Below, piece by piece: positions 1,662-17,389 of a stretch of DNA of 38,019 nucleotides (positions are counted from its first letter, which is position 1; each line of letters starts with the position of its first letter). Origin of the DNA: a virus; the IMG/VR virus record IMGVR_UViG_3300020020_000101, positions 1-38,019 of that record; one strand, given 5' to 3'. Under the pieces are notes generated by a model, which had not been told where the DNA came from, made no database searches, and saw only the letters and a list, made by a program, of their open reading frames with translations. Both the position numbers and the translations under genes were made by a program.

Positions 1662-2293
1662 TGGAGCTCCCTCCCATCCCTCCTCCCACACTGATCAAGT
1701 GCAGCAGGTGTGGGCTTACGGGAGAACCTCGCTTGTTCGAGATGCCCTTTCCCAACGAAGGGGGCTACACCTGCTCAGGTCGTTACGCCAGGGGCACCAT
1801 GAGCTGTCGCATGGACGAATCAGGGCTCGACATGTTCTGGGACGGTGATACCTTGCACCGATGGCGGCAAGAGGTTATTGACTTGGTCACTGCCCAGGCG
1901 CATGATGCGAGCATGAATGATTCAGCGACCGATGCCCAAGCGCTTAGGACGATCCCTGAGCGCATCCCCGTCAATGAGATTCGAGCTGCCCGAGCTGAGG
2001 TGAAGACGAGCCCCGACGCCATCGAGTTGGCTGAGGGCATCGCCGAGCAAGTCAAGGCACTCATCTTCCCCACACACAACGACGCGCTCGAGGACTGGAT
2101 GATGGAGGCCATCGTCGACGAGTTCCCCACGTTCAGGGAGCACCACATGAGCCCCGACGCGGATCCGAACGACGACGCCTTCGAGAAGCTCGAGGCCCAT
2201 GCCTACGACACGATGGCCAGCATCTTCCTCCAGGAGCTGCTGCGCCCCCTACTCACGCGCCTGCTCAATACAGGCGACTGGAAGGAGAACTGA
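1658..2293 (+). CDS. Hypothetical protein with N-terminal zinc ribbon, 211 aa
   Basis: ATG at 1658 overlaps the previous stop as ATGA. The N-terminus has a Pro-rich lead (MMELPPIPPPTLIK), then CSRCG, and further Cys at YTCSGRY and MSCRMDE, consistent with a four-Cys zinc site. The rest is strongly helical and acidic, with DALEDWMMEAIVDEFPTF and the C-terminal MASIFLQELLRPLLTRLL. No enzyme motif was recognised. It lies mid-operon and is coupled to the next gene by TGATG. Confidence 0.65.
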   Translation: MMELPPIPPPTLIKCSRCGLTGEPRLFEMPFPNEGGYTCSGRYARGTMSCRMDESGLDMFWDGDTLHRWRQEVIDLVTAQAHDASMNDSATDAQALRTIPERIPVNEIRAARAEVKTSPDAIELAEGIAEQVKALIFPTHNDALEDWMMEAIVDEFPTFREHHMSPDADPNDDAFEKLEAHAYDTMASIFLQELLRPLLTRLLNTGDWKEN

Positions 2294-2475
2294 TGCCCGA
2301 GACATCCCGACAGAAGATCAATCGGCTCACAGCTGAGATGGAGGAGATCCCCTCTGTCGACCATGAGCACGAGATCGACCGACTCATCCTCGAATGTGAG
2401 GGTGGGTCTCGCAAACTCATGCACAAAGAGCGCAAACGTCTCGCTGACGTGCTCACCGACCCAAGGAGGGGCTGA
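2293..2475 (+). CDS. Hypothetical protein, 60 aa
   Basis: Not recognised. ATG at 2293 overlaps the preceding TGA (TGATG), with AAGGAG upstream. The short charged helical protein starts MPETSRQKINRLTAEMEEI and has a basic C-terminal part (KLMHKERKRLADVL). Position, coupling on both sides and codon pattern support a real gene. Confidence 0.6.
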   Translation: MPETSRQKINRLTAEMEEIPSVDHEHEIDRLILECEGGSRKLMHKERKRLADVLTDPRRG

Positions 2476-2999
2476 TGCCCGCAAGACTCACCGCTCGGTG
2501 CGAGCAGTGTGATGTCAAGATCGAGTTCGACGATGACACCACCTCCTGGCTCCACCTCTTCCCCTCAGCCGGCTGCACCCATGCCTGGCCCCAGGGTGTG
2601 GAGCATCCCCTAGAGGACGAGTTCTTCGAGCGAGCGGATTTTGTTCGGATGATGCGGGGGGGTCGGGTATCAGCGACTCACCCCGCCCGCTCCAGCGAAG
2701 TTCGACGCACCCAGCACGACATCGCCCGACTGGAGCGACGGCTGGAGCTGCTCAAGACCTTCCCCGAAGATGACCCGTTCGACGACGGGGATGTCATCCA
2801 GTTCACCCGGCGCCTTGGGAACACCAACTACTCCTACGTAGGTCTCCGGCACAACAGCCGGTGGTACCTCACAGGCAAGCTCAACAAGACGCCCAAGAGC
2901 TGGGGCGATCTGGTCAAGATGCTCACCGACGGTAACCTCGTGAGCAAGGTCTGGTTCGTCTACCAGTGGGAAGAGATGGTCGTGGGGGAGAACGTCTGA
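2475..2999 (+). CDS. Hypothetical protein with N-terminal CxxC and C-terminal alpha/beta domain, 174 aa
   Basis: ATG at 2475 overlaps the previous stop (TGATG), preceded by AAGGAGGGG. The N-terminus has CEQCDVKIEF and later GCTHAW, a plausible zinc site. A helical stretch follows (RRTQHDIARLERRLELLKTF). The C-terminal part (DGDVIQFTRRLGNTNYSYVG through SWGDLVKMLTDG and KVWFVYQWEEM) resembles small domains widespread in actinophage early genes, where function is unknown. It is TGATG-coupled to the next gene. Confidence 0.65.
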   Translation: MPARLTARCEQCDVKIEFDDDTTSWLHLFPSAGCTHAWPQGVEHPLEDEFFERADFVRMMRGGRVSATHPARSSEVRRTQHDIARLERRLELLKTFPEDDPFDDGDVIQFTRRLGNTNYSYVGLRHNSRWYLTGKLNKTPKSWGDLVKMLTDGNLVSKVWFVYQWEEMVVGENV

Positions 3000-3199
3000 T
3001 GTGGAAGCTCACCTGGTACAGCTACCAGGTTAAGAAGACCAGCGAGTTCCCCACCAAGAACGCAGCGCTGTTCTTCGCTGCCAATGGAGAAGCCGACGGC
3101 CACATGTGGGCCGACGACCTCACTACTCCAGAAGGTCTACTCATCCAAGACGAAAAGTTCCGAAAGTTGCTTCGCCAATACCGAGGAGATGAAGAGTAA
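2999..3199 (+). CDS. Hypothetical protein, 66 aa
   Basis: Not recognised. ATG at 2999 overlaps the previous TGA. The protein begins MWKLTWYSYQVKKTSEFPTK and contains several aromatic residues, then GLLIQDEKFRKLLRQYRGD. It has no transmembrane segment or Cys pair. It overlaps the next start as TAATG. Confidence 0.55.
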   Translation: MWKLTWYSYQVKKTSEFPTKNAALFFAANGEADGHMWADDLTTPEGLLIQDEKFRKLLRQYRGDEE

Positions 3200-3393
3200 T
3201 GGAAGTCACTCTGCAGTTCGGCAACGCCGTGCTTACGATCAAGCCCAAGACCCAGGGCGACGGGCATGCCAAGCGCCTAACCTTCACTGTGACTGAGCTC
3301 CCGATGGGCAGTCAACCCAGCCAACGGATCGAGTTCGACGCAACCATGAAGGATGTGGAACAGATCACCAGAGCTCTCGACATCTTCACCTAG
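3199..3393 (+). CDS. Hypothetical protein, 64 aa
   Basis: Not recognised. ATG at 3199 overlaps the previous stop (TAATG). The sequence alternates hydrophobic residues in a beta-rich pattern (VTLQFGNAVLTIKPK, KRLTFTVTEL) and ends in a short helix (VEQITRALDIFT). It is the last gene of the operon from the promoter at 868 and is followed by two hairpins, the second being a good intrinsic terminator. Confidence 0.55.
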   Translation: MEVTLQFGNAVLTIKPKTQGDGHAKRLTFTVTELPMGSQPSQRIEFDATMKDVEQITRALDIFT

Positions 3394-3395
3394 AT

Positions 3396-3443
3396 CTCCG
3401 ACGGGCATCGGAGCGAGCAGGGTCCGCCTCGGCGGGCCTTGTT
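3396..3443 (+). terminator. Tandem hairpins with intrinsic terminator
   Basis: The first hairpin is CTCCGA/TCGGAG at 3396-3413. The second is GGTCCGCC/GGCGGGCC at 3421-3438 (one G-T pair) followed by TTGTT. They lie directly after the gene ending at 3393 and before the next promoter. Confidence 0.65.
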
Positions 3444-3451
3444 CGTGGATA

Positions 3452-3480
3452 TTGACAGAGATTGATCCCGGATATAAGAT
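3452..3480 (+). promoter_or_regulatory. Strong putative promoter giving a leaderless transcript
   Basis: TTGACA (3452-3457), a 17-bp spacer and TAAGAT (3475-3480). The predicted start, 6-7 bases downstream, coincides with ATG 3487 of the next gene, so the mRNA would have no 5' leader. Confidence 0.75.
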
Positions 3481-3486
3481 AACTGC

Positions 3487-3750
3487 ATGATGACGAGGAT
3501 AACGACGAGGTCGGGTGCGAGGTATGACATCGACACCGAGACTCTGGAGGTCGTGCGCCTGGCAGAGCATCCTGTCGTGGATGCCGTTGACGACGTTACG
3601 CCCGTGCCCGCACCCTGCAGCATGAAAGGCAAGCTCATCAACGACCTGGGTTGGATGCGGGTCGCTGAGCACGTGGTCTTCCGCTGCGCCTGCTGCGGCA
3701 TCACGGTCAAGTCGACTCGGATTGAGGAGGAGGTCACAGTTGACGGGTGA
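3487..3750 (+). CDS. Hypothetical protein, 87 aa, probably leaderless
   Basis: Not recognised. ATG at 3487 lies at the predicted transcription start of the promoter at 3452 and has no ribosome-binding site in front of it, as expected for a leaderless mRNA, which actinobacteria translate well. The protein contains ARYDIDTETLEVVRL near the N-terminus and a Cys cluster near the C-terminus (HVVFRCACCGITVKSTRIEE), which may bind metal. The stop overlaps the TTG start of the next gene. Confidence 0.6.
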   Translation: MMTRITTRSGARYDIDTETLEVVRLAEHPVVDAVDDVTPVPAPCSMKGKLINDLGWMRVAEHVVFRCACCGITVKSTRIEEEVTVDG

Positions 3751-3925
3751 CGAAGAAGAGAAGATCATGGAAGCGCTTGGTCATCTGCTGAACTTAGAGA
3801 CCAGGCTCAAGGATCTCTGGGACGACAAGGAGGTGGTGCAGGTTGTGGGCATGACCGACATCCAACACTGCACCCTCCACATCCACTTCATCCGATCTGC
3901 GCTTGAGAACGTGCTCGACCCATGA
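3740..3925 (+). CDS. Hypothetical helical protein, 61 aa
   Basis: Not recognised. TTG at 3740 is chosen because GAGGAGGAGG ends 6 bases upstream; no ATG or GTG is as well placed. The protein is helical and acidic (LTGDEEEKIMEALGHLLNL) and ends in HLHIHFIRSALENVLDP-like text with several His residues. It overlaps its upstream neighbour by 11 bases and the downstream one as ATGA. Confidence 0.55.
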   Translation: MTGDEEEKIMEALGHLLNLETRLKDLWDDKEVVQVVGMTDIQHCTLHIHFIRSALENVLDP

Positions 3926-4341: not shown

Positions 4342-4559
4342 GTTACCCCCCTACTCCTCACTTTGGCAAGGCACCTGTCTCAACTAAGAGGTACTTCAAA
4401 ACCAAGCGTGAGATGGATGCTCGGCCACGTTACGAGATTGAGACATACCAGTATCACAATGGTCAACGGTGGATGACTTACTGGTCATGCCCCACAGCTC
4501 AACTCCACGAACTGTTGAGAGTGAAGGCTGTGCTCGAGTCTTTAGAGTGGAAGCTGTGA
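4338..4559 (+). CDS. Hypothetical protein, 73 aa
   Basis: Not recognised. GTG start overlaps the previous stop (GTGA). The protein is rich in aromatic residues (YEIETYQYHNGQRWMTYWSC) and ends in a helix (LLRVKAVLESLEWKL). Coupling on both sides supports it as a real gene. Confidence 0.55.
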   Translation: MSYPPTPHFGKAPVSTKRYFKTKREMDARPRYEIETYQYHNGQRWMTYWSCPTAQLHELLRVKAVLESLEWKL

Positions 4560-5302
4560 CCGAGGCTTACGAGATCCGGCCCAAGAAGTTCCGTCGGCGT
4601 AAGAAGGCGGAGGGCGATGACATCATGGATCTGCTCGCCCCCGAAAAGCCTACGCTTGCGCTCGGCAAGGACAAAGGCTTGCGTTGTCGTGAGTGTGGCA
4701 AGTGGAAGCAGTGGAAGATCCTCTGGACCGCGTACGAACGCAGGTCCGGCGACCTCATGCGCCTCTGGATATGCCCAGACTGCAGCGGCGTATTGCGCAC
4801 CGACAACATGACCGGGTACGAGGCCCATCTAGAGTGGCAGGAGAAGATGAACGGACCAAACGGCAAGCGTATTCTCATCTGTGGTGACCGGAACTGGACT
4901 GACGTTAAGGCCATCAGCAAGGTGCTTAAGGGCTTTGATCCCCACACCACCGTGCTGATCTGCGGCATGGCAAGGGGAGCAGACATCATTGCTTATCAGC
5001 TGGCAAAGCGGATGGGTATGCACGTCATGGAATTCCCTGCAGAGTGGAAGAAGCACGAACGCAGTGGCCCTTCATACGCTCGTTGCAGCTGCCCAGAAGG
5101 AGCTGACTATTGCCCAGTAGCGGGCCCTCGGCGTAATCGTCAGATGCTCAAGGAGGGTAGGCCTGAGCTTGTCATCGCTTTCCACGATGATCTCTATGGT
5201 AAGACTGAGCGGGGTCGAATTAGGGGCACCTACGACATGGTGAAGATTGCCAAGGCCAAGGGAGTAAAGGTGCGCTTGGCACGACACAAGGTCCAAAGGT
5301 AG
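4556..5302 (+). CDS. Zinc-ribbon plus SLOG (YspA/DUF2493-like) protein, 248 aa
   Basis: GTG at 4556 overlaps the previous stop (GTGA). The basic N-terminus (PKKFRRRKKAE) is followed by a zinc ribbon with CRECGKWK and, about 30 residues on, ICPDCSGVL. The C-terminal domain begins KRILICGDRNWTDVKAISKV and continues LICGMARGADIIAYQLAKR, then AGPRRNRQML and PELVIAFHDD. This is the classic DUF2493/SLOG Rossmann-like fold (G-x-R-x-W, G-x-ARGAD, G-x-x-RN), related to nucleotide or nucleotide-derivative sensors such as DprA, LOG and YspA. Ligand and role in phage are unknown; roles in nucleotide binding or in sensing host defence signals are possible. It ends its operon. Confidence 0.8.
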   Translation: MTEAYEIRPKKFRRRKKAEGDDIMDLLAPEKPTLALGKDKGLRCRECGKWKQWKILWTAYERRSGDLMRLWICPDCSGVLRTDNMTGYEAHLEWQEKMNGPNGKRILICGDRNWTDVKAISKVLKGFDPHTTVLICGMARGADIIAYQLAKRMGMHVMEFPAEWKKHERSGPSYARCSCPEGADYCPVAGPRRNRQMLKEGRPELVIAFHDDLYGKTERGRIRGTYDMVKIAKAKGVKVRLARHKVQR

Positions 5303-7723: not shown

Positions 7724-8542
7724 TCACTTCTTCTTGGGCTTAGTTGCTCCTTCCAGCAAGAGGCTCGTCAATGAGCTCACGGTCGGATTCTTGAGTACGT
7801 CCGGCAGATCGAACTCGGACCGGACCCCGGTGTCGTACATCGGATGATTCCCGATCCAGAGGCGGCGCTGATTCTTCTCGATCGGTTCTCCTCCATCGGG
7901 GTTGACAAACTGAGCCTTGGTCACGTAGAGCCTGCCGATGACATCCACGTTCGCGTTCAGGGCGGACCGGACACCGGGGGGTACATCAGGGACGTAGAAG
8001 ACAGAGCTTTCTGCCAGCTCGTCATCGTCGCTGCTGCCCTTGTCCACCTTCTCCTGAGCAGTGTAGATGACCCCCATGTCCAGGCCATCGAGCTTGTAGA
8101 TGAGTTCCTTGGTGAGCTCTCCAGCTTTTCCGTGGTCGCGTTGGTCAACGACGCCGGGCACTCGGTCGAGGTTGCGATCCTCACCCAGCTTCATGATGAA
8201 CCTGAGCGACAGGTTGTGGATCTTGGTGATCGTGTCGGGGCAGACCCAGGTGTAGTCGTGCTTGCCTGTGCGCAAGAACCCGAGGGCATCGTTGAGATCT
8301 TCGAACTTCTTGATGGGCCAGACGTCAGGGTCGAGCTTGCGGTACTTGTCCGTGCCTTTCTCCGCATCCAGCATGAGGATCTTGCCGTCCGGCACATCGT
8401 TGGCACTGAGGGCGAACCGCGTCTTGCCTTTCTTGTGCCGACTGTAGACCAAGAACCGCCACTTGGGTCTCATCTTGCTGGGCTTGGTGATCGACTTGGC
8501 GGCGATGGCCGCATAGTTCTTCTCCTTACCTCGTACTGCCAT
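7724..8542 (-). CDS. Sak4-like (RecA-fold) ATPase, 272 aa
   Basis: ATG 8542 follows AAGGAG. A P-loop-like segment at about residues 35-45 (YSRHKKGKTRFAL) keeps GKT but lacks the usual first Gly. GKILMLDAEKGTDK follows, then TWVCPDTITKIHN (Walker-B-like), and GLDMGVIYTAQEK. This layout is typical of the phage AAA_24/Sak4 family, single-strand annealing or RecA-like proteins that work with a DUF669-type SSB; such an SSB is the next gene. It most likely acts in phage recombination and replication. The C-terminus is Lys-rich. Family assignment is by motif order. Confidence 0.75.
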   Translation of the reverse strand: MAVRGKEKNYAAIAAKSITKPSKMRPKWRFLVYSRHKKGKTRFALSANDVPDGKILMLDAEKGTDKYRKLDPDVWPIKKFEDLNDALGFLRTGKHDYTWVCPDTITKIHNLSLRFIMKLGEDRNLDRVPGVVDQRDHGKAGELTKELIYKLDGLDMGVIYTAQEKVDKGSSDDDELAESSVFYVPDVPPGVRSALNANVDVIGRLYVTKAQFVNPDGGEPIEKNQRRLWIGNHPMYDTGVRSEFDLPDVLKNPTVSSLTSLLLEGATKPKKK

Positions 8543-8729
8543 CGGTCTCCTTCTTCTTGGGTCGAATCCATTGACTGGGTGACTTCGTGAGCAATCGGTG
8601 AGGAGCGTGAGGCCAAGCACCCTCCTTGTGACCTTGCACTGGGGTGTGGCCCTCGGCGAGCGTGCAGCTCACCACCCCACCCTCGGGGTGCGGCCGTTGA
8701 GCTGGGCAAGGAGGACGGTCCCAGCTCAC
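8526..8729 (-). CDS. Small Cys/His protein, 67 aa
   Basis: GTG 8729 is chosen because AGGAGG sits 5 bases upstream and it overlaps the preceding stop as GTGA. The protein contains CPAQRPHPEGGVVSC and GHTPVQGHKEGAWPHAPH, a Cys/His pattern common in small actinophage proteins of unknown function. The basic C-terminus (WIRPKKKETDGSTR) overlaps the Sak4-like start by 17 bases. Confidence 0.65.
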   Translation of the reverse strand: MSWDRPPCPAQRPHPEGGVVSCTLAEGHTPVQGHKEGAWPHAPHRLLTKSPSQWIRPKKKETDGSTR

Positions 8730-8893
8730 TTGAACCTCCTGCACAAGCACTGATCCTTGGCCTTGCTCATTGATGGTGTCTTTTCCTCGTACTGATGACG
8801 GCATTCAGTGTCATCGCCGTCATAGCCAGTATTCTTGCCTGTGTGAACCCCTCGGGTATGACCGCACTGGGCGCACTTGTCAGTCTCGGCCAC
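8726..8893 (-). CDS. Small zinc-finger-like protein, 55 aa
   Basis: GTG 8893 is preceded by AGGAGG 9 bases upstream and overlaps the nuclease stop by 14 bases. The N-terminus reads MAETDKCAQCGHTRGVHTGK, followed by a single Cys (TECRHQY) and a C-terminal CLCRRFK. This CxxCGH...H...C arrangement suggests one or two zinc sites. Function is unknown. The gene is short enough to be dropped by common length cutoffs, but its coupling on both sides supports it. Confidence 0.65.
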   Translation of the reverse strand: MAETDKCAQCGHTRGVHTGKNTGYDGDDTECRHQYEEKTPSMSKAKDQCLCRRFK

Positions 8894-9980
8894 CGTCAGT
8901 CACCTCCTGCTCATCGTAGTAGTAGCTCATCGGATCCTCGACCTTGTACTTTCTCTTGATGATGGGGTCGATGTTACCCCCCCATAGCTGAGCAGTGCAG
9001 ATGTCGACATAGCTGCATGAGAACTCGCAGCTTCGGTCAGGCACCCGTTCGATCATCTCGGGCCTATCCCAAGGGTACTCGTTCATGCGGGTGTGGGTAT
9101 GGTACATCTCCCGAGCCACCTGGTTAAGCATCGTCGGAGCCTTTTCCAGCACATCGCGTCGGAAGAAGGTGGAGTTCTGGATCTCGCCAAAGCGATACTG
9201 CAGACCCTTAAGATACTTGGCCTTGGCATTATACTCAGGCAATATCTTCAGCCCATGTTCCTTCTGGTACTGTTTCACAGCAGCGACGTAAGTCGGGTAG
9301 TCAGTGTCGCACTCAGCCTTGCTCAGTCGCTGGTTCGCCTTGCCCAGGTAGGCCATCTTCGGAACGCTGGGCTCCTTCCACCTGATGTAGTTCCAGATGT
9401 GACCCTGCACAGGGATCTTGTTCTTCAGCGCTGCCCACACATAGTCGGCAGACTGGGCATCGAGGATGCGGTAGTCTAGCTTGGGCAGTGTCTTGTGACT
9501 CTTGTGGTCGACAATCCAGAGCCCGAACTGGTCCTCAACAAGGAGGTCAACCTTAGCTCGGAAGATAGAACCGTCAGGCAGTTCGGCCTCCAGCACGAAC
9601 TCCACATCCAGCACCTTCCAGTCATGCTTGCTGTAGTGCCAGAGATAGGCAGTCATGACTCGGAAGATCTCTCGAGGAAGGTCGCCGTAGAAGTCCTTCT
9701 CCTCATCGAACAAAGCGTTGAACTCTTTGCTCAGTCGCTGGTGCGCTTCCCACATAGCAGCGACCGCGTCTTTGTGCTTGGCTCCATCCTTCAGTGCCCT
9801 CGAGAACACCTCCAGGAGAAGGTGAATCCACGTCCCCCGCTTCAGCGGCGAGCCCAGCTTCTTAGGCTTCAGTCGATGGATATACTTGAACTCAGCCTGC
9901 TTCGGACATCTCCGGAACGTCTTCAGCATAGAGTGGGTGCTGATGGTCCGCCCTGTGTCCGGATCTAAGTAGATTCCCAA
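8880..9980 (-). CDS. Cas4/RecB-like PD-(D/E)XK exonuclease, 366 aa
   Basis: N-terminal STHSMLKTFRRCPKQAEFKY is the typical entry helix with the first Cys of Cas4/AddB-type nucleases. The catalytic core has DGSIFRAKVDLLVED and LWIVDHKSHKTLP (D...D-x-K), followed by a conserved Gln/Tyr region. The C-terminal part has CEFSCSYVDICTAQ, giving the remaining Cys for a probable 4Fe-4S cluster. These enzymes resect or process DNA ends; with the Sak4-like ATPase and SSB it forms a recombination module. TTG 9980 is preferred (AGGAG 6-7 bases upstream, after the previous stop); GTG 10037 would add 19 residues and overlap the upstream gene. Confidence 0.8.
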   Translation of the reverse strand: MGIYLDPDTGRTISTHSMLKTFRRCPKQAEFKYIHRLKPKKLGSPLKRGTWIHLLLEVFSRALKDGAKHKDAVAAMWEAHQRLSKEFNALFDEEKDFYGDLPREIFRVMTAYLWHYSKHDWKVLDVEFVLEAELPDGSIFRAKVDLLVEDQFGLWIVDHKSHKTLPKLDYRILDAQSADYVWAALKNKIPVQGHIWNYIRWKEPSVPKMAYLGKANQRLSKAECDTDYPTYVAAVKQYQKEHGLKILPEYNAKAKYLKGLQYRFGEIQNSTFFRRDVLEKAPTMLNQVAREMYHTHTRMNEYPWDRPEMIERVPDRSCEFSCSYVDICTAQLWGGNIDPIIKRKYKVEDPMSYYYDEQEVTDGGRD

Positions 9981-10005
9981 CGTCTTCTCCTCGGTCAGCG
10001 ATCCA

Positions 10006-10173
10006 TCATATCGAACGCGAGACTCTCCAGTCAACACTCTTGTTCCAGAGCTTACGGCCTGCCACGCGACCGAGGCGATACGTCCACTTCAGAGTGATGA
10101 TGAGCATGGCCACAAGAAGAGAGCCCCCATAGAACAACAGCACTAGCAAGGCTATGGCAAGAACTAGTAGCAT
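10006..10173 (-). CDS. Small membrane protein, 55 aa
   Basis: ATG 10173 has AGGAGG 7 bases upstream. The N-terminal 30 residues form one or two hydrophobic helices (MLLVLAIALLVLLFYGGSLL, then VAMLIITLKWTY), followed by a basic cytoplasmic-type tail (RLGRVAGRKLWNKSVDWR). No homology is recognised. It sits between the polymerase and the nuclease in the early operon, so a holin role is less likely than membrane anchoring of replication or superinfection control; that is inference. Confidence 0.65.
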   Translation of the reverse strand: MLLVLAIALLVLLFYGGSLLVAMLIITLKWTYRLGRVAGRKLWNKSVDWRVSRSI

Positions 10174-10177
10174 CACA

Positions 10178-10315
10178 CTACCTCCTGATGCCAAAGGGGT
10201 GGCATCGTACCCAGTGAAACTTGTTACGCCAGCGACCGTGATGATGACTCTGGCACCAGAAGCAAAAGTCCCACTCAGGAAAGTGCCATTGGTACCAAGC
10301 TCGTAGGCGAGTCAC
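10178..10315 (-). CDS. Small Cys/His/Trp-rich protein, 45 aa
   Basis: GTG 10315 overlaps the polymerase stop as GTGA, and TAG 10178-10180 lies 4 bases before the next ATG. The protein reads MTRLRAWYQWHFPEWDFCFW, followed by CQSHHHGRWRNKFHW and VRCHPFGIRR, with CxxC, several His and a CH pair: a possible zinc-binding mini-protein. Function is unknown. Coupling and reading-frame fit support it despite its size. Confidence 0.6.
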   Translation of the reverse strand: MTRLRAWYQWHFPEWDFCFWCQSHHHGRWRNKFHWVRCHPFGIRR

Positions 10316-12873
10316 TCAGCCTCCTTGATGCGTCCTAGGTCAGTGGCCTTGAGCCACCGCCTCAACGCCTTTTCGTCGAACACTACGTCCCCAGGAATTT
10401 CCTGAGCATCGCCCCAGTGCGACCCCACCTTCAAGTCAGCCACGATCGGGACGTCCATCTCCACACCAAACTGCGAGGCGAGCTGATCCATCAGCGCCTC
10501 CTCCATACTCCACTTCATAATGGGGATGACGTGCTTCGCGTGGTCTTCCCTAGCCTCGACCAAGCCAGCATCGTGGATGGTGCCCAGCAGATGAGCGTCT
10601 AGGCTCCGCCTCTTGAACTCGGTGGTCATGATCTGGATAGCCATCAGCATCATGTCGGAGCCGAACGACTGCACGGGCGAGTTGATCGCCTGGCGCTCAG
10701 CCTCACGCATGACCCCTTCATTTTCGCTATGGATGTCGGGGAGGCGGCGTATCCGGCCGATAGGTGAGATGACCCTGCCATACTGATGCGCCAGTCGCTT
10801 CTGCTTAGCATGCCATGCCTGCAGCCTAGCGAACTGACGGAAGTATGCCTTGCGAACCTCGTATGCTTCGTCCAAGGTGAAGTGGACACCGTAGTTCTCC
10901 CAAGCATAGATGACGAACTTGGGAGCCCCCATGCTGTAGAGGAAGCCGAAGTTGACGGGCTTAGCTTTCTTCCGGTCATCTTTCGTGACCTTGGTCTGGG
11001 GAATGCCGAGGACGTTAGCAGCCGTAGCTGCGTGAATGTCCATCCCCATTTGGAACAAGCGCTTCATCGTAGGCTCGTCAGCAAGGAACGCAGCGATCCT
11101 CAGCTCGACCTGGGAGAAGTCAGCCTCGATAACCACATAGCCTGGAGCAGCACCGAACAACCCTCGAGCCATACTGTCTCTGGGAACTTGCTGCAGATTG
11201 ATGCTTCGTTGGTCAGTAGCTCGACCAGAGATCTTTTCCTCATCAACCTTGCCAGAGGAGGTGCGCCCAGTCACCGTACCTGCCAGCTTGAACGATGTAT
11301 GAATGCGGTCGAAGGGGTCGAGCACTGACTCATACGTGGTCATGAACTGACCAAGCTTAGAGTAGTTAGCCCGCTTCATGAGTAGGGGGATAGCAGGGTG
11401 CTCGTCCTTCAGAGTCATCATCACCCCCTCCCGCATGCTCGGGTCCCCCTCTGACCCGTCAGGCTTCTCCTTGCCCCGCTCGAGAACTGGCAGCTTCAGA
11501 TACTCGAACATCCACCATCGAGACCAGTTGCTGGGGTTGAAGTTGACCGGCACTGGGCGAGGGACCCTATGTTTGGTGTGGGGCCAGCCCATCTCGATCA
11601 GTTCTTCAGGCTCACCCTTCGGAACGTGCTCCATGATCTGACGCTCAAACTCTTTGACCATCTCAAGAGTCTGATGGCGTCGGTTGGTGAGCCTATCCCT
11701 GTCCATCCAGAACCCTCTGAGCTCAGCCCCGATGTAGAGCTCATTAGCCGGCATCGTGATGAGTCGGTAGATGCGGCATAACCTCTCCTGTTCGACTAAC
11801 TCCTGTCGAATCTCAAGGTAGATGTGGTAGGTGTACCAGGTATCGAGAGTGTTATACCAGAGTACATCACCAATGGGCTGAGACCAGAGATCCTTCGTAC
11901 TGATCGCCCAGGGGGGAACACCCAGCCTGCTCAGCGCCTGAGGCTTGAGACCCTTCTGACGATTCTCGTCCAGCAAGTGAGCGGCTAGCATAGTGTCGAA
12001 GGTTACCCTAACCCCCACACCAAACTTACGAAGCCAGCGGGCGTCGAACTTACCGTTGTGGGCGATCTGCTTCTTCGGCTTGGCTAGGTGTGGGCCTAGG
12101 TGTCGGAGCAAAGAGCGCCAGCTCTTAACCCATCTACTTTCCGGGTGAGCAAGAGGTATGGCGAAGCACTTGAGTTTCCCTCCAGGCATGACCAGTGTGC
12201 CAGCCAACGACACGATGACTCCGTCAGGGTCATGCTCGTCCCTGCCCTTGGTCTCGATGTCGTAGACCAGCACCTCGGCGCGGTCCAGCCACTTGATGAC
12301 CTTGGCGATCTTCTCTTTGTCGTCAGCGATCAGCACCTTCGGTAGAGGCACCTTGGCAGACTTCTCGAAGACCTGTGCCACGAAGAGGCGAAGCTCGGCG
12401 ACATATGCTTGACGCTGACCAGGATTGCGCAGGACAGATGCTGGGGAGACCGTAGGGAATACGGAATACCCCTCACGCGTGACTACTCGGCCTCGATACT
12501 TCATGATTCCTGAGTGACCTGTCGTGGCAAGCAGGGCCTCATTACCCATCGCCAGGATCCACTTAGGCTTGATGGCAGCGATCTCCGCGTCCAGGTACTT
12601 GCGACAGGCCTTGACGTCAGCGTTGCTGGCGTTCTGCTCGAAGTTGCGGCACTTGATCGCAGCCGAGTAGAAGATGTCCTCGGGCTCAAGTCCTACCTCG
12701 GCAAGGTCCTCCTCCAGCCGCCTCTGGAATGCGTCGCTGTTCGGCATGCGACCCACGACCATGATCTTAGCCCGCTCATCGCCAAAGCCCTCCTGACAAA
12801 CCTGGATGGCCTGCTGGTGAAGCTTGCAGCCCGTGCACCCATCGTCGTAGATCTTGGCTACTAGTGACTTCAC
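10312..12873 (-). CDS. Family A DNA polymerase with N-terminal uracil-glycosylase-like domain and 3'-5' exonuclease, 853 aa
   Basis: Residues about 1-175 resemble family 4/5 uracil-DNA glycosylases: CTGCKLHQQAIQV, AAIKCRNFEQNA and KPKWILAMGNEAL, with Cys positions as in Fe-S forms. The usual GEAPG motif reads VVGRMPNSDAF, so catalysis is doubtful. The exonuclease motifs are VYDIETKGRDEHD (about 204), AHNGKFDARWLRKFG (about 273) and YNTLDTWYTY (about 343), with the key Asp/Glu present. Polymerase motifs are A, IEADFSQVELRIAA (about 585); B, KKAKPVNFGFLYSMG (about 639); and C, LGTIHDAGL (about 766). It is the replicative polymerase. GTG start overlaps the upstream gene (GTGA). Confidence 0.93.
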   Translation of the reverse strand: MKSLVAKIYDDGCTGCKLHQQAIQVCQEGFGDERAKIMVVGRMPNSDAFQRRLEEDLAEVGLEPEDIFYSAAIKCRNFEQNASNADVKACRKYLDAEIAAIKPKWILAMGNEALLATTGHSGIMKYRGRVVTREGYSVFPTVSPASVLRNPGQRQAYVAELRLFVAQVFEKSAKVPLPKVLIADDKEKIAKVIKWLDRAEVLVYDIETKGRDEHDPDGVIVSLAGTLVMPGGKLKCFAIPLAHPESRWVKSWRSLLRHLGPHLAKPKKQIAHNGKFDARWLRKFGVGVRVTFDTMLAAHLLDENRQKGLKPQALSRLGVPPWAISTKDLWSQPIGDVLWYNTLDTWYTYHIYLEIRQELVEQERLCRIYRLITMPANELYIGAELRGFWMDRDRLTNRRHQTLEMVKEFERQIMEHVPKGEPEELIEMGWPHTKHRVPRPVPVNFNPSNWSRWWMFEYLKLPVLERGKEKPDGSEGDPSMREGVMMTLKDEHPAIPLLMKRANYSKLGQFMTTYESVLDPFDRIHTSFKLAGTVTGRTSSGKVDEEKISGRATDQRSINLQQVPRDSMARGLFGAAPGYVVIEADFSQVELRIAAFLADEPTMKRLFQMGMDIHAATAANVLGIPQTKVTKDDRKKAKPVNFGFLYSMGAPKFVIYAWENYGVHFTLDEAYEVRKAYFRQFARLQAWHAKQKRLAHQYGRVISPIGRIRRLPDIHSENEGVMREAERQAINSPVQSFGSDMMLMAIQIMTTEFKRRSLDAHLLGTIHDAGLVEAREDHAKHVIPIMKWSMEEALMDQLASQFGVEMDVPIVADLKVGSHWGDAQEIPGDVVFDEKALRRWLKATDLGRIKEAE

Positions 12874-13228: not shown

Positions 13229-13260
13229 CTCTCGATCATCGCATTCATGCGATCATCGTA
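13229..13260 (-). promoter_or_regulatory. Near-palindromic operator-like element
   Basis: ATCGCAT-TC-ATGCGAT is centred at 13244-13245 and flanked by further GATCATC repeats. It lies in the initially transcribed region, directly downstream of the -10 box at 13255-13260. Confidence 0.5.
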
Positions 13261-13747
13261 TCACGGGGGAATTACTGCAGTCAACGACTTGGATGCCAGC
13301 AGAGACCAAGAGGTCCACGCCCTCCTTCACCCGGTACATCGCCGCTGAGTGCAATTTGGTGATCCCCACGTTCACGAGAAGCTGGGCGCAGGACACGCAG
13401 GGCGAGAAGGTGGCGAAGAGCTCGCTGCCCTCTAGTCCCACACCATGCTTGGCGGCGAAGGCGATGGCGTTGGCCTCAGCGTGCACGGCGATGGTGCAGG
13501 GTTCACTGGACTTGCACGTCAAGTCGTGGGTCCTCTTGATGCTCATCTGAGTAACACCGCAGCTGCAGTGGTGGTCGCAGTGAGGCATACCAGCGGGGGC
13601 ACCGTTGTAGCCGGTTACGAGAACTCTGCCATCACGGGCGAAGACGCAGCCAACGTGGGCTCGACTGCAGGTACTGCGCTCGGCTGCTACGTGAGCCATC
13701 TCCATGAGGTTCTCCTCACGGGTGGGTCGGCCTGCGTGGATACTCAT
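13253..13747 (-). CDS. Deoxycytidylate deaminase, 164 aa
   Basis: Zinc-dependent dCMP/cytidine deaminase motifs are intact: HAEANAI (His 89, Glu 91) and SPCVSCA (Cys 117, Cys 120). An additional N-terminal Cys/His-rich region (MPHCDHHCSCG) matches the second structural zinc found in T4-like dCMP deaminases. The enzyme converts dCMP to dUMP and is usually regulated by dCTP and dTTP. ATG 13747 overlaps the stop of the ThyA-like gene (ATGA), so the two are made together, which fits a shared nucleotide pathway. The length is in the usual range. Confidence 0.93.
   Translation of the reverse strand: MSIHAGRPTREENLMEMAHVAAERSTCSRAHVGCVFARDGRVLVTGYNGAPAGMPHCDHHCSCGVTQMSIKRTHDLTCKSSEPCTIAVHAEANAIAFAAKHGVGLEGSELFATFSPCVSCAQLLVNVGITKLHSAAMYRVKEGVDLLVSAGIQVVDCSNSPVIR
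13255..13284 (-). promoter_or_regulatory. Putative promoter of the polymerase operon
   Basis: On the - strand: TTGACT (13284-13279), an 18-bp spacer and TACGAT (13260-13255). It overlaps the 3' end of the deaminase gene and would drive 13219 leftward through the polymerase and recombination genes. Confidence 0.65.
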
Positions 13748-14553
13748 CGCCCTACCTCCTTCTGAAGTCGAGGAATGTCGCCCTTGAAGCAGTGGAAGCT
13801 GTTGATGTGCATGGTCAAGTTCCCTGTCTTGACGCCGGTGTCGAGCTGGTCAACCATCCACTGCATCAGCCTTGCCGCCATGTAGACATCATCAGGGAAG
13901 TGGCGGAGGAAGTCGCACGAACGGATGTAGTAAACCGCGTGAAGCCGATTGCCACGGATGTTAAAGAGGTAGCCAAGCGTGCAAGGAACTCGACCTCCAT
14001 GTACAGCCCCTGTGTCTTCGGGGAACCAGACGGGGAGAAACGCTTGGCGCGTATGCGGCGAATTCTTGAGCTGCGTGACGACATCAGCAAGGTCTCCATA
14101 CTCGTAGCGAATGCCATTGTTAGGCCAGGCAGCCTGACGGCCATTCGGTCGTGTCTCCTCACCAGCAAACTTGGGCCAGAACCTCTCAGGGTAGGTGTGG
14201 GAGAACTTCTCGCCTTCTTTGTGGGCAGCATTGCCCCGCTGGGCGAAGGGCCAGTACGACTCACTGGGCGGGGGGTTCAGTGGCTCACCGGATACCCGTT
14301 CGAGGAAGTGGTCCTCGGCCCAGGGCAAGTTTGGTTTTACGCGATCCTGGAGAGCTTCCAGACCACCAGGCACTGCCCACACCATGGTCGTGTCTCGGAG
14401 CTCAAGCATCGTGCCGAGGTTGGGGTCCTGGATCTTCTTGCTCTGCCATTCGCCGACGTTCACTTCCTCGGCTGAGTGCAGGAACTCCACATACATCTGT
14501 TGGATAAAGCGGTGGAAGGACCACCCTAACTCCAGTAATTCGTATGCTCTCAC
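13744..14553 (-). CDS. Thymidylate-synthase-fold enzyme, probable dCMP (hydroxy)methylase, 269 aa
   Basis: ThyA-fold landmarks in order: HTRQAFLPVWFPED (phosphate Arg 169), RVPCTLGYLFNIR (catalytic Cys 191), YYIRSCDFLRHFPDDVYMAA (211-226) and MHINSFH (about 248-254). Aligned to E. coli ThyA RSVDVFLGLPFNIASY, the Asn that selects dUMP falls on Asp 222. That change is the known hallmark of dCMP hydroxymethylases such as T4 gp42 and lets the enzyme use dCMP. The usual HIY Tyr is replaced by Asn. It most likely makes a 5-substituted dCMP using methylene-tetrahydrofolate. It is coupled to dCMP deaminase. Alternative: a divergent thymidylate synthase. GTG start overlaps the upstream stop. Confidence 0.8.
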   Translation of the reverse strand: MRAYELLELGWSFHRFIQQMYVEFLHSAEEVNVGEWQSKKIQDPNLGTMLELRDTTMVWAVPGGLEALQDRVKPNLPWAEDHFLERVSGEPLNPPPSESYWPFAQRGNAAHKEGEKFSHTYPERFWPKFAGEETRPNGRQAAWPNNGIRYEYGDLADVVTQLKNSPHTRQAFLPVWFPEDTGAVHGGRVPCTLGYLFNIRGNRLHAVYYIRSCDFLRHFPDDVYMAARLMQWMVDQLDTGVKTGNLTMHINSFHCFKGDIPRLQKEVGR

Positions 14554-14774
14554 TTCGGTCTCCCTGGGATCATGAACCGTTCACCGCAGTGCTGGCATAC
14601 GATTCGTTCGTTTGGGTGTTCCCCTCCTGGGCTCATCATGAGCCTGCCTGTCGTCTTGCAGTAAGGACAAGGTTTGGTCTTCAGCCACTCAATGTCCCCC
14701 TTCTTAACCAGCGACGAGAGGGGTCGGTACTTAGTCTTCTTCTTCTTCGATGTCTTCGTCATCATCACCCCCAT
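14550..14774 (-). CDS. Zinc-ribbon protein, about 74 aa
   Basis: A Lys-rich N-terminus (MTKTSKKKKTKYRPL) is followed by CPYCKTTGR and, about 20 residues on, CQHCGERFMIPG, a classic two-CxxC zinc ribbon. It likely binds nucleic acid or protein; function is unknown. ATG 14774 has GGGGAGG 6 bases upstream but overlaps the upstream gene by 44 bases. ATG 14765 or 14762 would be leaderless on the transcript from the promoter at 14773-14801, so two translation starts are possible. Confidence 0.65.
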   Translation of the reverse strand: MGVMMTKTSKKKKTKYRPLSSLVKKGDIEWLKTKPCPYCKTTGRLMMSPGGEHPNERIVCQHCGERFMIPGRPK

Positions 14775-15762
14775 CGTATACCTCCCCGAAGCTCCTGTCA
14801 AGGGGGAGGCGGATCGCGGAGAAATCGCAATCCCTGACGTCGACAGAGGCGAGGGGCAAATACGCTTTGAAGAACTCCTTCTGTTCTCCTCGCTGAGGCC
14901 CCTTGGTGTGGTATGACCACCCCTCGAAGCGCTGGGCAAACTCGTAGCCTCGGACTTCGGTGTGGTAGCGGCGACGGATGCGCCGATAGGTGTTGTAACT
15001 CATGTCGCCGTAGGTGTCACCCCGACGGTCCTCGTCGATGACCTTCTGAATCCACTGCCTGCTCATGGATAGGCCAGGGGTCGACATCACATACACGAGT
15101 TCATCGGCGCTAAGCTTGTCCTCGTGCTTCAGCATGAGATGCCGGAACCTCTTGCGCTTCTCCTCGTCCCGGTTGTTGAGCATCCAGGCCAGGGACTTGA
15201 AGTTGTGCCACTGAAGAGCCTCATTGTACCAGATGAATCGGAAGCTCTCTACTGGAACATCTAGGTCCTTCGCCAGATAGCGAGCCGCCATCCAAGCCAC
15301 AGATAGATCGAGAGCCCCGATGTATCCCAGGTACGATGTGCGGGAATGAAGGGTGATAGTCGGCGCCGGGACCGCCTTGTAAGAGAGACTGAGCATGCAA
15401 CTCCCCCATCGCCGAGTCTCCCTATTGCCAACGTGTGCCCCACCCCGAGGACGTACTTCCTTCGTACGAAGTACCGCAATGCCCCTCCCCTTCAGTCCGA
15501 TACCACTGACGCACTTCCTGAGCCAGGTGTCAACGGCTTCAGGCTCGAGGTACTGCCTGACCATCATGGACCACCGTTGCTTCGTGAGCCACATGGATTT
15601 GAGATCAAAGTCCCACTCCATGCTGTCAGCCTGGCTCATGGTGTCATGGATCTGGACATCCACGCTGGTCACCAGGTCGAGCTCGCCCATCTTGGCGTGC
15701 ACAAGTTTGTCGCAGAGACTCTCGTGGAGGTCCGTAAGCGTCGCAGCCTTGAACGCCCTCAT
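14731..15762 (-). CDS. Second thymidylate-synthase-fold protein, 343 aa
   Basis: The middle of the protein follows the ThyA plan: RRWGSCMLSLSYKAVPAPTI (Cys 122), TLHSRTSYLGYIGALDLSVAW (Arg 141, Asp 152) and SFRFIWYNEALQWHNF. The Arg-Ser/Thr motif and the following helix align with ThyA RSVD...PFNIASY, with Asp 152 at the Asn position, as in its neighbour. The N-terminal part lacks clear ThyA motifs and the C-terminal 140 residues, ending in a Glu/Asp tail, are unlike ThyA. It may be a second dCMP-modifying enzyme, a partner subunit or a non-catalytic paralogue. ATGA-coupled to the upstream AP2-like gene. Assignment rests on motif order. Confidence 0.6.
   Translation of the reverse strand: MRAFKAATLTDLHESLCDKLVHAKMGELDLVTSVDVQIHDTMSQADSMEWDFDLKSMWLTKQRWSMMVRQYLEPEAVDTWLRKCVSGIGLKGRGIAVLRTKEVRPRGGAHVGNRETRRWGSCMLSLSYKAVPAPTITLHSRTSYLGYIGALDLSVAWMAARYLAKDLDVPVESFRFIWYNEALQWHNFKSLAWMLNNRDEEKRKRFRHLMLKHEDKLSADELVYVMSTPGLSMSRQWIQKVIDEDRRGDTYGDMSYNTYRRIRRRYHTEVRGYEFAQRFEGWSYHTKGPQRGEQKEFFKAYLPLASVDVRDCDFSAIRLPLDRSFGEVYDGGDDDEDIEEEED
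14773..14801 (-). promoter_or_regulatory. Putative internal promoter
   Basis: On the - strand: TTGACA (14801-14796), a 17-bp spacer and TACGAT (14778-14773), inside the end of the upstream ThyA-like gene. It would drive the zinc-ribbon, ThyA-like and deaminase genes. The -10 matches that of the promoter at 13255. Confidence 0.55.
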
Positions 15763-15944
15763 GATGCCGCCTGAAGCTTCTCAGCTTCATCCTTAAGTCT
15801 CTGGATCTTGAACTCAATCTCTGCCAACCGGGCCTCTTCCCATGTGTTGAAGGTACCAAGGGTAAGCGTGATCTTCCGCCGCCCCTCTACCCAAGACACT
15901 TTGCCTTGGTATCTACCCCCTCGGTCTTTACGATACCCTGGCAT
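15759..15944 (-). CDS. Small AP2/integrase-arm-like DNA-binding protein, 61 aa
   Basis: The sequence GGRYQGKVSWVEGRRKITLT, then LGTFNTWEEARLAEIEFK, resembles the three-strand-plus-helix AP2-like or integrase arm-binding domain (LGxFxTxEEAxxA). Here it stands alone without an integrase catalytic domain. It probably binds DNA. Similar domains occur in phage homing endonucleases and regulators. It is coupled on both sides within the nucleotide-metabolism operon, which makes local regulation possible. Confidence 0.65.
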   Translation of the reverse strand: MPGYRKDRGGRYQGKVSWVEGRRKITLTLGTFNTWEEARLAEIEFKIQRLKDEAEKLQAAS

Positions 15945-16279
15945 CAGTCGGGAAGGTGGACAGCAGTCGGGTTCTCATCCATCCACTTGACGAATGAGTT
16001 TCGAGCATTGGCGATGCCCTCAGCCATGTCGAACGCCCCTGGGCGGTAAATCTCCAGAAGCCGGGCGTACTCGATCACCACCATCAAGCCAAGCATGTCC
16101 TTGGCTCGAACAACGAAGTACGGTTCACCCGTTGCCTCGCACTCCTCAACGATGCGCAGCCCCTTCGGCTTGTGGGTGTGAGATACAGGCAATTGCTCCA
16201 CACCCGGGTGAAGCTCGATGGGTGCTCGCTTGCCCCAGTGCTTGCCCCCGGGCTCGAAGTCTGGGTTATGGGTAGTCAA
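15944..16279 (-). CDS. Hypothetical protein, 111 aa
   Basis: Not recognised. TTG 16279 overlaps the previous stop (TTGA) and is preceded by AAGGAG 8 bases upstream, which decides this start over any internal ATG. The protein starts MTTHNPDFEPGGKHWGKRAP; a beta-rich part (GLRIVEECEATGEPYFVVRA) is followed by helices (MLGLMVVIEYARLLEIYRPG). It lies between the NTP pyrophosphatase and the AP2-like gene in the nucleotide cluster, so a link to that pathway is possible from context only. Confidence 0.6.
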   Translation of the reverse strand: MTTHNPDFEPGGKHWGKRAPIELHPGVEQLPVSHTHKPKGLRIVEECEATGEPYFVVRAKDMLGLMVVIEYARLLEIYRPGAFDMAEGIANARNSFVKWMDENPTAVHLPD

Positions 16280-16833
16280 TGCTTCTGCTCCTTGTACTTG
16301 TCGGCGTGGTCTTTGTTGCAGAACTTGAGAATGGCGTTGATCTCTTCCTCCTGAAAGATCTGGAGACGAGCAGGCCATGGAATCTCTGTCAAGTCTCGGC
16401 GGCAGTAGCCGCACTTGTCGGACTTACCGTCGTAGTTGTCGATCTGGCGTTGCAAGTTCTTGAGCTGCTTGGCCTTGTACGCGGCGGTGAGCTCCTCGCC
16501 AGTGGCCTGGCAGTGAGTGAGCAGATTGCCAAGGAAGTGCATGATGTCCACTGCCTCACGGATCGCTGCCTCCCGGTTGATCCACCCCCGAGGCGGGGCC
16601 CAAGGCTTCCACCCCATCTCGTCGCCCATCTCCACGATCTCAGAAGTGGCGGCGTAGAGGTTCATCATCATGGAGTCCGCCCGAGTCTCATCATCCATCT
16701 GATCGTAGAAGGCGTCGTAGGCCAACTCCTGCAACCGACGAGTAGTGGTGAGCCACATGTCGAAGTTGTAGTCCTCGGGCAGTCGATCCAGCACCTGCTT
16801 GAACTGCTCCAACCGTTCAGCGTCAGCGGGCAT
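16276..16833 (-). CDS. All-alpha NTP pyrophosphatase (dUTPase/dCTPase-like) with zinc ribbon, 185 aa
   Basis: The metal-binding pattern of the all-alpha NTP-PPase superfamily (dimeric dUTPase, MazG, T4 gp56 dCTPase) is present: SEIVEMGDEM (Glu 65, Glu 68, Glu 72) and REAAIREAVDIMHFLGNLL (Glu 93, Asp 96). These enzymes hydrolyse dUTP and/or dCTP to monophosphate plus pyrophosphate. The C-terminal 50 residues add a Cys/His site (CGYCRRD, FCNKDHADKY), which is unusual. ATG 16833 overlaps the end of the kinase gene. In this cluster it could remove unmodified dCTP as well as dUTP, as gp56 does in T4; the substrate cannot be told from sequence. Confidence 0.75.
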   Translation of the reverse strand: MPADAERLEQFKQVLDRLPEDYNFDMWLTTTRRLQELAYDAFYDQMDDETRADSMMMNLYAATSEIVEMGDEMGWKPWAPPRGWINREAAIREAVDIMHFLGNLLTHCQATGEELTAAYKAKQLKNLQRQIDNYDGKSDKCGYCRRDLTEIPWPARLQIFQEEEINAILKFCNKDHADKYKEQKH

Positions 16834-17389
16834 TGGCGTGGATCCCGTGACGGGCCAGAGAAGTAGCGATCTGGGCGACGAGCGACTCGAAGTACCCAGT
16901 GCCCTCGTCATGCTCGTAATCCCACACCCTAATAGTGCCCTGGCTGATGGCGAGGTCAACGGCGATGCGAGCCTCGTACAGCTTGTAGACCCGGCGCATC
17001 ACCTTCTCGTTCTGCACCACCTTGCTGGTCTCGTCCTTCTGGACGTTCTTCCAGACAATGTCCCAGGCGGGCATACAGTAGATGATGAACGGCTCAAGGC
17101 CGTAGAACCGGGCGAGCATGTTACTCAGCCACCCCCGATGTTGGTGGGGGGGCTTCCACTCATTGTCCATCGCTGGCGAGTACACCAGCTCAGAGATGAG
17201 TGAGAAGCGGTCGTACAGCCTCAACCCAAAACCCTGGCTGATGGCATGGTCGATCCACTCGCCCATGTCCACAGTTGCTTGGGCCTCGTTGTTCACAGCC
17301 TTGGGTTCGATCTGGACTCCAAGAGCCATAGATAGCCTCTCAGCCATCTTCGTTTTGCCAGCACCGTCTGGTCCCTCGACTACGATCAA
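16823..17389 (-). CDS. Deoxynucleoside monophosphate kinase (thymidylate-kinase-like), 188 aa
   Basis: The N-terminus carries a complete P-loop (MIVVEGPDGAGKTKMAERLS), followed by LRLYDRFSLISELVYSPAM, the DR(F/Y) signature of thymidylate-kinase-like enzymes. EPFIIYCMPAWDIV and a lid-like basic/acidic helix follow. Length fits the family. It would phosphorylate dTMP or another, possibly modified, dNMP. TTG at 17389 is preceded by GAGGAGGAG and by the promoter at 17423-17450, making it the first gene of the nucleotide operon 17389-13253. Confidence 0.85.
   Translation of the reverse strand: MIVVEGPDGAGKTKMAERLSMALGVQIEPKAVNNEAQATVDMGEWIDHAISQGFGLRLYDRFSLISELVYSPAMDNEWKPPHQHRGWLSNMLARFYGLEPFIIYCMPAWDIVWKNVQKDETSKVVQNEKVMRRVYKLYEARIAVDLAISQGTIRVWDYEHDEGTGYFESLVAQIATSLARHGIHANAR

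Follow-up and report, generated by a model that had tools for sequence, protein, structure and literature searches.

The nucleotide-metabolism cluster at positions 13253–17389 (− strand) of the IMG/VR virus record IMGVR_UViG_3300020020_000101 (38,019 bases, hereafter the window) raises the question of whether its genes supply ordinary thymidylate or a modified cytosine. An initial annotation had listed five genes here, encoding a thymidylate-kinase-like deoxynucleoside monophosphate (dNMP) kinase, an all-alpha NTP pyrophosphatase, two ThyA-fold proteins, and a deoxycytidine monophosphate (dCMP) deaminase, and had likened them to the modified-cytosine pathway of phage T4. The list of open reading frames (ORFs) and the Pfam and PHROG matches confirmed the coordinates and motifs, and the five genes lie head to tail with overlapping ends. 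All five are present; three small ORFs inside the cluster (15944–16279, 15759–15944, and 14550–14774) had been left out of the list. We estimate a probability of about two in three that the cluster encodes a pre-replicative cytosine-modification pathway. The phage most likely makes a 5-substituted dCMP before replication, and the nature of the substituent (hydroxymethyl, methyl, or hydroxy) is a prediction.

Much of the argument is carried by the 269-aa ThyA-family enzyme (13744–14553, − strand), which matches PF00303 (43.6 bits; cut-off 24.3) and phrog_160 (6.8e-32), a family common to this enzyme, T4 gp42, and ORF048c of phage RB69. In an alignment of 62 relatives (43–56% identical to the window protein, with one at 30%), the equivalents of several residues of Escherichia coli thymidylate synthase (EcTS) are invariant (62/62), namely Cys191 (EcTS Cys146), Tyr121 (Tyr94), Arg211 (Arg166), Asp214 (Asp169), Asp222 (Asn177), and His254 (His207). 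Residue 192, the counterpart of EcTS His147, is Thr or Ser (T192 in the window protein). In T4 gp42, C191 corresponds to Cys148, D222 to Asp179, and Y121 to Tyr96, located near the C4-amino group and C5; the last equivalence was set by motif, not superposition, Y121 being in a Y-x4-W context like NYGWAIW of T4. The CT...Asp pattern is likewise found in T4 gp42 and RB69 ORF048c; the canonical gp67 of Microbacterium phage Triscuit has CH...Asn. An Asp at position 177 is the published determinant of ThyA cytosine specificity (PMC8670742; PMC6400193), as it switches the substrate from deoxyuridine monophosphate (dUMP) to dCMP. In environmental DNA, no two positions separate ThyA proteins of cytosine-modified and unmodified phage contigs better than 177 and 147 (PMC8670742). 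Ser after the Arg166 equivalent, observed in 58 of the 62 proteins, together with Arg169 (269-aa numbering), which is also present, is a pattern of deoxy- rather than ribonucleotide substrates (PMC5175136). The AlphaFold model (pLDDT, the predicted local confidence, 92.5) has MilA as its top Foldseek match, and the closest profile and fold matches are the CMP hydroxymethylase MilA, the RB69-type dCMP hydroxylase, and the dCMP-bound N229D mutant of L. casei thymidylate synthase. These residues make it very probable that the enzyme prefers dCMP. Exclusive action on dUMP, the outcome that the initial annotation had set against its own proposal, appears unlikely given the Asp in place of the uracil-determining Asn177 in 62/62 proteins. 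That proposal is partly supported overall, and the invariant cytosine-reading Asp strengthens it.

The most conventional alternative is thymidylate supply, in which the deaminase and dUTPase would provide dUMP, the 269-aa enzyme would act as a thymidylate synthase, the kinase would form dTDP, and the DNA would remain unmodified. All four named activities occur in the dTTP pathway, this reading has been published for the Gordonia CT cluster (PMC10353413), and named relatives annotate the synthase, and in most cases also the kinase, in this sense. However, Asn177 is replaced by Asp (62/62) and His147 by Thr or Ser, and there is no C-terminal tail, which hydride transfer requires; only 9–30 residues follow the His207 equivalent in the 269-aa family vs. 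57 in EcTS. The score of the 269-aa protein falls under all curated NCBIfam thymidylate synthase equivalog cut-offs, reaching at best 45.9 of 174.55 bits. Moreover, a canonical ThyA (CH/N177) in Triscuit and a ThyX in Streptomyces phage KimJongPhill are encoded in addition to the D-type enzyme, which therefore is not the sole route to dTMP in these phages. Finally, thymidylate supply leaves the 343-aa protein of the cluster unexplained. We consider this alternative unlikely; judged by its sequence, the 269-aa enzyme cannot be counted among the canonical thymidylate synthases. In the ThyA tree, the 269-aa family forms a clade of its own (support 98/97), and T4 gp42 joins gp45 of phage Mercedes (99/96) and not this clade, whose placement is unsafe because of long branches. 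The 269-aa enzyme appears to work like gp42, yet it is not classed as a gp42 orthologue.

If the substrate is dCMP, the next question is what is added to it. In EcTS, the C-terminal tail seals the active site for hydride transfer. T4 dCMP hydroxymethylase (dCH), a hydroxymethylating enzyme, has no such tail (PMC6400193), and since the tail is missing in the 269-aa family as well, a hydroxymethyl product is favored over a methyl one; we put the chances of 5-hydroxymethyl-dCMP being the first product at roughly even. A dCMP methylase, by which virion DNA would come to contain 5-methylcytosine as in Xanthomonas phage XP12 with no further decoration needed, would agree with the conversion of thymidylate synthases into dCMP methylases by the N229D/N177D substitution (cited in PMC8670742) and with the lack of a recognized transferase in four complete relatives. 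Nevertheless, methylation by ThyA requires the tail as a seal, and its loss here, as in the hydroxymethylating T4 dCH (PMC6400193), makes a methylase improbable. As for the cofactor, EcTS Asp169 is in direct contact with the folate pterin; in T4 dCH, a water molecule bridges the pterin and the equivalent Asp171 (PMC6400193). A folate-dependent reaction of the 269-aa enzyme seems likelier than a flavin-dependent one because this Asp is kept in 62/62 proteins, the marker being drawn from few characterized enzymes. Loss of Asp169, the RB69-type marker taken from one sequence (Asn in RB69), is not observed in the 269-aa enzyme, where D214 is present in 62/62.

The second ThyA-fold protein, of 343 aa (14731–15762, − strand), is far less conventional. 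It belongs to phrog_13667 (E 1e-104), a family of unknown function. Neither Pfam nor NCBIfam models match it, a PDB search with its profile came up empty, and hhalign of the 343-aa family against the 269-aa family detected no relation. Two phmmer leads were rejected, namely calmodulin (E 0.007), which was spurious, and ThyX (E 0.84), which was weak and was dropped after the structural model matched ThyA folds. The AlphaFold model (mean pLDDT 92.2) matches ThyA-fold enzymes in Foldseek from E 8e-8, with the dCMP hydroxylases 9iqu and 9iqc best, followed by MilA, thymidylate synthase, and T4 dCH. There were 95 PDB matches at E ≤ 0.001, and the 50 listed are ThyA-fold enzymes (thymidylate synthase, its fusion with dihydrofolate reductase (DHFR-TS), MilA, dCH, and dCMP hydroxylase) and one designed protein, 4f2v, which matches the 269-aa enzyme too. 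The template modeling (TM) scores are modest (0.37 on the query and 0.52–0.56 on the target), and hence the protein is best described as a divergent member of the fold. A ThyA fold is confidently predicted from the model, and in this respect the initial annotation, which had counted two ThyA-fold proteins, was right, with PF00303 as the basis for the 269-aa protein and AlphaFold with Foldseek, in lieu of any sequence match, for the 343-aa one.

An alignment of 99 distinct partner proteins (median pairwise identity 24%), made separately from that of the 269-aa family, has five invariant columns (99/99), i.e., Tyr71, Gly120, Cys122, Arg141, and Asp152. Y71, C122, R141, and D152 correspond to EcTS Y94, C146, R166, and N177, the last replaced by D, and the spacings (C–R 19, R–D 11, Y–C 51) are close to those of EcTS (20, 11, and 52). 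At position 169 the family has Y, S, E, H, or L and never Asp, position 147 is hydrophobic, and among the 99 proteins there is no invariant Glu and no invariant upstream Arg, that is, no counterpart of Glu58 or of the cross-dimer Arg126/127. The two ThyA-fold proteins are thus very different and do not form the equivalent pair that the initial annotation had implied. Invariant ThyA residues combined with a position 169 that is never Asp most naturally suggest an active enzyme whose substrate is a cytosine nucleotide and which would not use folate in the usual way. In the databases searched, phrog_13667 came with neither a function nor a fold or active site; a fold, an active site, and a likely substrate class can now be suggested for it from the model. 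The C-terminus of the window protein is acidic (DDDEDIEEEED; 14731–14790), a trait common to the closer relatives and not to those of about 300 aa.

The fold matches also suggest another possibility, that one of the two ThyA-fold enzymes, more likely the 343-aa protein, makes 5-hydroxy-dCMP in a flavin-dependent reaction, in the manner of RB69 ORF048c or AfhB of HY126. Its best Foldseek matches are 9iqu and 9iqc, and Asp169 is missing while Asp177 is kept both in ORF048c (N at 169) and in the 343-aa family. On the other hand, the TM-scores are modest, and at position 147 RB69 has Thr where the 343-aa family has a hydrophobic residue; we regard such an activity as rather doubtful.

How closely the two proteins belong together is seen from their distribution. 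A tblastn search with the 343-aa protein yielded 85 phage records, all with actinobacterial hosts, and those inspected carry the label "hypothetical protein." The family occurs in phages of Mycobacterium (including Muddy), Gordonia, Streptomyces, Microbacterium, and Curtobacterium. In a cellular collection of 84,980 genomes, we found two hits only, both in metagenome bins and possibly viral. Iterative searches of loci around the 269-aa gene added very distant 343-aa partners, including the type of Brevundimonas phage Strzyga, and three more distant partner proteins that were tested match phrog_34294, for which the databases searched likewise gave no function, fold, or active site. In total, a 269-aa-type gene is located near the 343-aa-type gene in 130 of 133 loci (about 129 viral contigs, some overlapping, and three named phages), and the other three are contigs ending at most 358 bases from the gene. 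Some contigs are counted twice, so that independent cases number fewer than 133; the 99 distinct partner proteins indicate roughly how many. The gap between the paired genes is often −4 bases. The reverse pairing is weaker, the partner being absent from the stretch examined at 38 of 168 loci that carry the 269-aa type, some stretches being incomplete.

By visual inspection, the gene order is consistent at several loci (L023, L037, L056, etc.), with an IMP-dehydrogenase-like gene upstream of the partnerless 269-aa-type gene. At L071 and L073, near position 7900, such a gene adjoins, again by eye, asparagine-synthetase- and glutamine-amidotransferase-like genes, with DNA-methyltransferase-like genes in addition at L073; these two loci may represent another cytosine-decoration cassette.

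At one locus (L086), the 343-aa protein (8001–9029) is the nearest relative of that in the window, with 74% identity, whereas the protein in the 269-aa slot (9933–10643) is about 30% identical, all key residues being kept. This looks like a gene exchange that preserved the pair. From the pairing and this exchange we conclude that the 343-aa enzyme probably requires either the 269-aa enzyme itself or what that enzyme produces. The two may form a heterodimer, with the phosphate-binding Arg supplied by the 269-aa chain, as the 343-aa family has no conserved upstream Arg. Alternatively, the 343-aa protein may have no catalytic activity and serve the 269-aa enzyme as a scaffold or regulator; it has lost Asp169, has no invariant upstream Arg or Glu, and never occurs without the 269-aa type where the contig extends far enough. 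Yet the nucleophilic Cys and the equivalents of Tyr94, Arg166, and Asp177 make up four of the five invariant columns in 99 diverse proteins, which is the reverse of decay, and a dead protein is accordingly a quite improbable explanation.

The other genes of the cluster fit around this pair. From right to left, the order is kinase, pyrophosphatase, two small ORFs, 343-aa gene, 75-aa ORF, 269-aa gene, and dCMP deaminase, all on the − strand, followed by a gene for DNA polymerase I (PolA) with a uracil-DNA glycosylase (UDG) domain. The P-loop kinase (16823–17389; 188 aa, TTG start) has a GPDGAGKT P-loop and a DR motif and matches the thymidylate kinase family phrog_761 (E 2e-13) and, weakly and under the cut-off, Pfam Thymidylate_kin (18 bits). 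As phrog_761 is also the family of the RB69 kinase encoded near the 5-hydroxy-dCMP synthase gene (ORF048c), we propose it as a candidate dNMP kinase for the modified nucleotide. The pyrophosphatase (16276–16833; 185 aa, ATG at 16833) belongs to PF08761, dUTPase_2 (34 bits; cut-off 22.9), phrog_18650 (2.5e-24), and phrog_173 (1e-8), and its translation contains the ExxE/ExxD motifs of all-alpha NTP pyrophosphatases (EIVE and EAVD). T4 gp56 matches the same Pfam and PHROG families, and a dCTPase-dUTPase activity is proposed. The dCMP deaminase (13253–13747; 164 aa) matches PF00383 (E 4.4e-22) and phrog_174 (2e-46) and has the HAE and PCxxC zinc motifs.

Of the small ORFs, that at 15944–16279 (TTG start by position) has no Pfam, PHROG, or PADLOC family match but has relatives in the same position at a few loci, e.g., L007, L086, and L089. 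A basic ORF of 61 aa (15759–15944) overlaps its neighbors at both ends. Between the two ThyA-fold genes, the 75-aa ORF (14550–14774) with a CxxC...CxxC pattern has weak zinc-ribbon matches below cut-off and few relatives. A PADLOC defense-gene scan of nine window proteins gave no match.

The same order of kinase, pyrophosphatase, 343-aa, 269-aa, deaminase, and PolA genes is found in Curtobacterium phage Shrew, Microbacterium phage Triscuit, and KimJongPhill, and variants of it are present in Mycobacterium phage Muddy, whose 343-aa homologue is gp47, and Gordonia phage Azira; PolA keeps its position in the relatives. Recurrence of the order in named phages of several hosts indicates that the cluster is not a chance arrangement. 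In the window, PolA (10312–12873, − strand; PF00476 3.6e-67, PF01612) lies immediately downstream of the cassette as a replicative neighbor, and its N-terminus is fused to the UDG-superfamily domain (PF03167 1.2e-17). The left part of the window contains helicase, nucleotide cluster, UDG-PolA, exonuclease, and Sak4-like genes, and at the right end there are scaffold and major head protein genes, then tail and lysis genes. The record is probably a fragment of a genome, since no terminase, portal, or primase was found among the window ORFs scanned. An ORF on the + strand (4469–5302) matches phrog_289, a GTP-binding domain (E 1.3e-22), and is a candidate gene of that stretch.

From the genes, folds, conserved residues, and co-occurrence, we infer the following scheme of substrates, products, steps, and effect. 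The dUTPase_2-type enzyme would convert dCTP (and dUTP) to dCMP (and dUMP), clearing normal dCTP. The 269-aa enzyme, with Asp222 reading the cytosine, would transfer the one-carbon unit of methylene-tetrahydrofolate to C5 of dCMP, the product most likely being 5-hydroxymethyl-dCMP, as with T4 gp42. The 343-aa protein would be a second ThyA-fold enzyme for a cytosine nucleotide, acting on the product of the first or in a complex with it; it keeps the Cys that would attack C6, the Tyr located at C5/N4, the Arg for the phosphate, and the Asp that reads cytosine, and has lost the folate-contacting Asp. The kinase would then phosphorylate the modified dCMP and PolA incorporate it, while the deaminase would turn leftover dCMP into dUMP for thymidylate made elsewhere. 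The finished base may hide the DNA from host restriction. We find it likely that virions of phages with this cassette contain modified cytosine. In its boldest form, which we put forward tentatively, two ThyA-fold enzymes working in series or as an obligate heterodimer would build the C5 substituent wholly at the mononucleotide stage, and the 343-aa family would be a new class of cytosine-nucleotide enzymes. To our knowledge, such two-step ThyA chemistry is known for no phage base.

Several observations weigh against cytosine modification. In the papers searched, neither chemical nor genetic data point to modified virion DNA in the window phage or its named relatives, no reports on modified DNA were found for Muddy, GTE2, or other cassette actinophages, and the four named genes of the Gordonia CT cluster have, as mentioned, been published as thymine synthesis (PMC10353413). 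The role of the 343-aa protein is deduced from residues only, and dCTP hydrolysis by the pyrophosphatase stands as a predicted activity. The catalytic Glu58/Glu60 has two candidates in the 269-aa family, E80 (E in 38, D in 23, and N in one) and E85 (61/62). Lastly, GT1 and GT2 glycosyltransferase models and carbamoyltransferase models gave no match in the window or in the complete relatives Muddy, Azira, Shrew, and Triscuit.

The last result agrees with the initial annotation, which had seen nothing like a glycosyltransferase in the window, and gives no positive evidence for the downstream decoration that it had envisaged. The absence is weak evidence, as the same models missed two annotated glycosyltransferases of Mercedes. 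Likewise, among ten hypothetical proteins from Muddy and Azira that were scanned with Pfam and PHROG, there was no convincing candidate for decoration, and KimJongPhill has some glycosyltransferase matches. If cassette phages do have no transferase, the 343-aa enzyme would be the best candidate for a second step. In KimJongPhill (1199–3758 of its locus, L182), genes for a nucleotide-sugar epimerase, a methyltransferase, and a glycosyltransferase adjoin the terminase gene and are candidate decoration genes.

Should cytosine modification be correct, dozens of sequenced actinophages, including Muddy and its relatives, would carry modified cytosine despite their thymine-synthesis annotation, with a bearing on restriction, CRISPR, type IV defense, sequencing, and engineering of these phages. 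A protein family listed as unknown would gain a fold, an active site, and a likely substrate class, and the availability of cultured cassette phages makes direct testing feasible.

Two further phage loci contain other ThyA-type genes next to sugar-transfer genes. The 40-kb Microbacterium actinophage Mercedes (MT498063; 5141–10634) encodes a T4-gp42-like ThyA (CT, Asp169, and Asp177) annotated as thymidylate synthase, two glycosyltransferases, a thymidylate kinase, and a MazG protein, and the locus looks like a complete T4-style hydroxymethyl-and-glycosylate cassette; matches to T4 gp42 were found in 194 Microbacterium phage records. In Maribacter phage Molly_4 (339–5098 of its locus), a ThyA-family gene with different residues around position 177 adjoins beta-glucosyltransferase and sugar-nucleotide genes.

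Among characterized systems, the parallel with T4 (gp42, gp56, gp1, and cd) drawn in the initial annotation holds at the family level, through T4 gp56, T4 gp42 together with RB69 ORF048c, and the RB69 kinase. As in T4, the window has a dCMP-type ThyA with Cys, Tyr, Arg, Asp169, and Asp177 and no C-terminal tail, a dUTPase_2-family pyrophosphatase, a dNMP-type kinase, and a dCMP deaminase; the kinase likeness is with RB69. In contrast to T4, the ThyA enzyme of the window falls in a clade of its own, the genes form one short operon, a second, near-obligate ThyA-fold protein is present, and no glucosyltransferase was recognized. The 5-hydroxycytosine pathway of RB69 (ORF048c, kinase p045) shares with the window the phrog_761 kinase and a phrog_160 ThyA with the CT motif and Asp177, and the 343-aa protein matches ORF048c and its HY126 relative best in fold. 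Across the aligned region, ORF048c is identical to PDB 9iqc, an entry described as riboflavin-dependent. It differs from the 269-aa family in having Asn at 169 vs. Asp in 62/62, and RB69 also possesses a sugar-synthesis cluster and arabinosyltransferases. Finally, MilA of the mildiomycin pathway, which ranks first among both the profile and the structure matches to the 269-aa family, has the CT motif and an Asp at the cytosine position, but it prefers CMP and has Ala176 and Lys133, whereas the 269-aa family has Ser (58/62) and Arg169, the deoxynucleotide pattern (PMC5175136).

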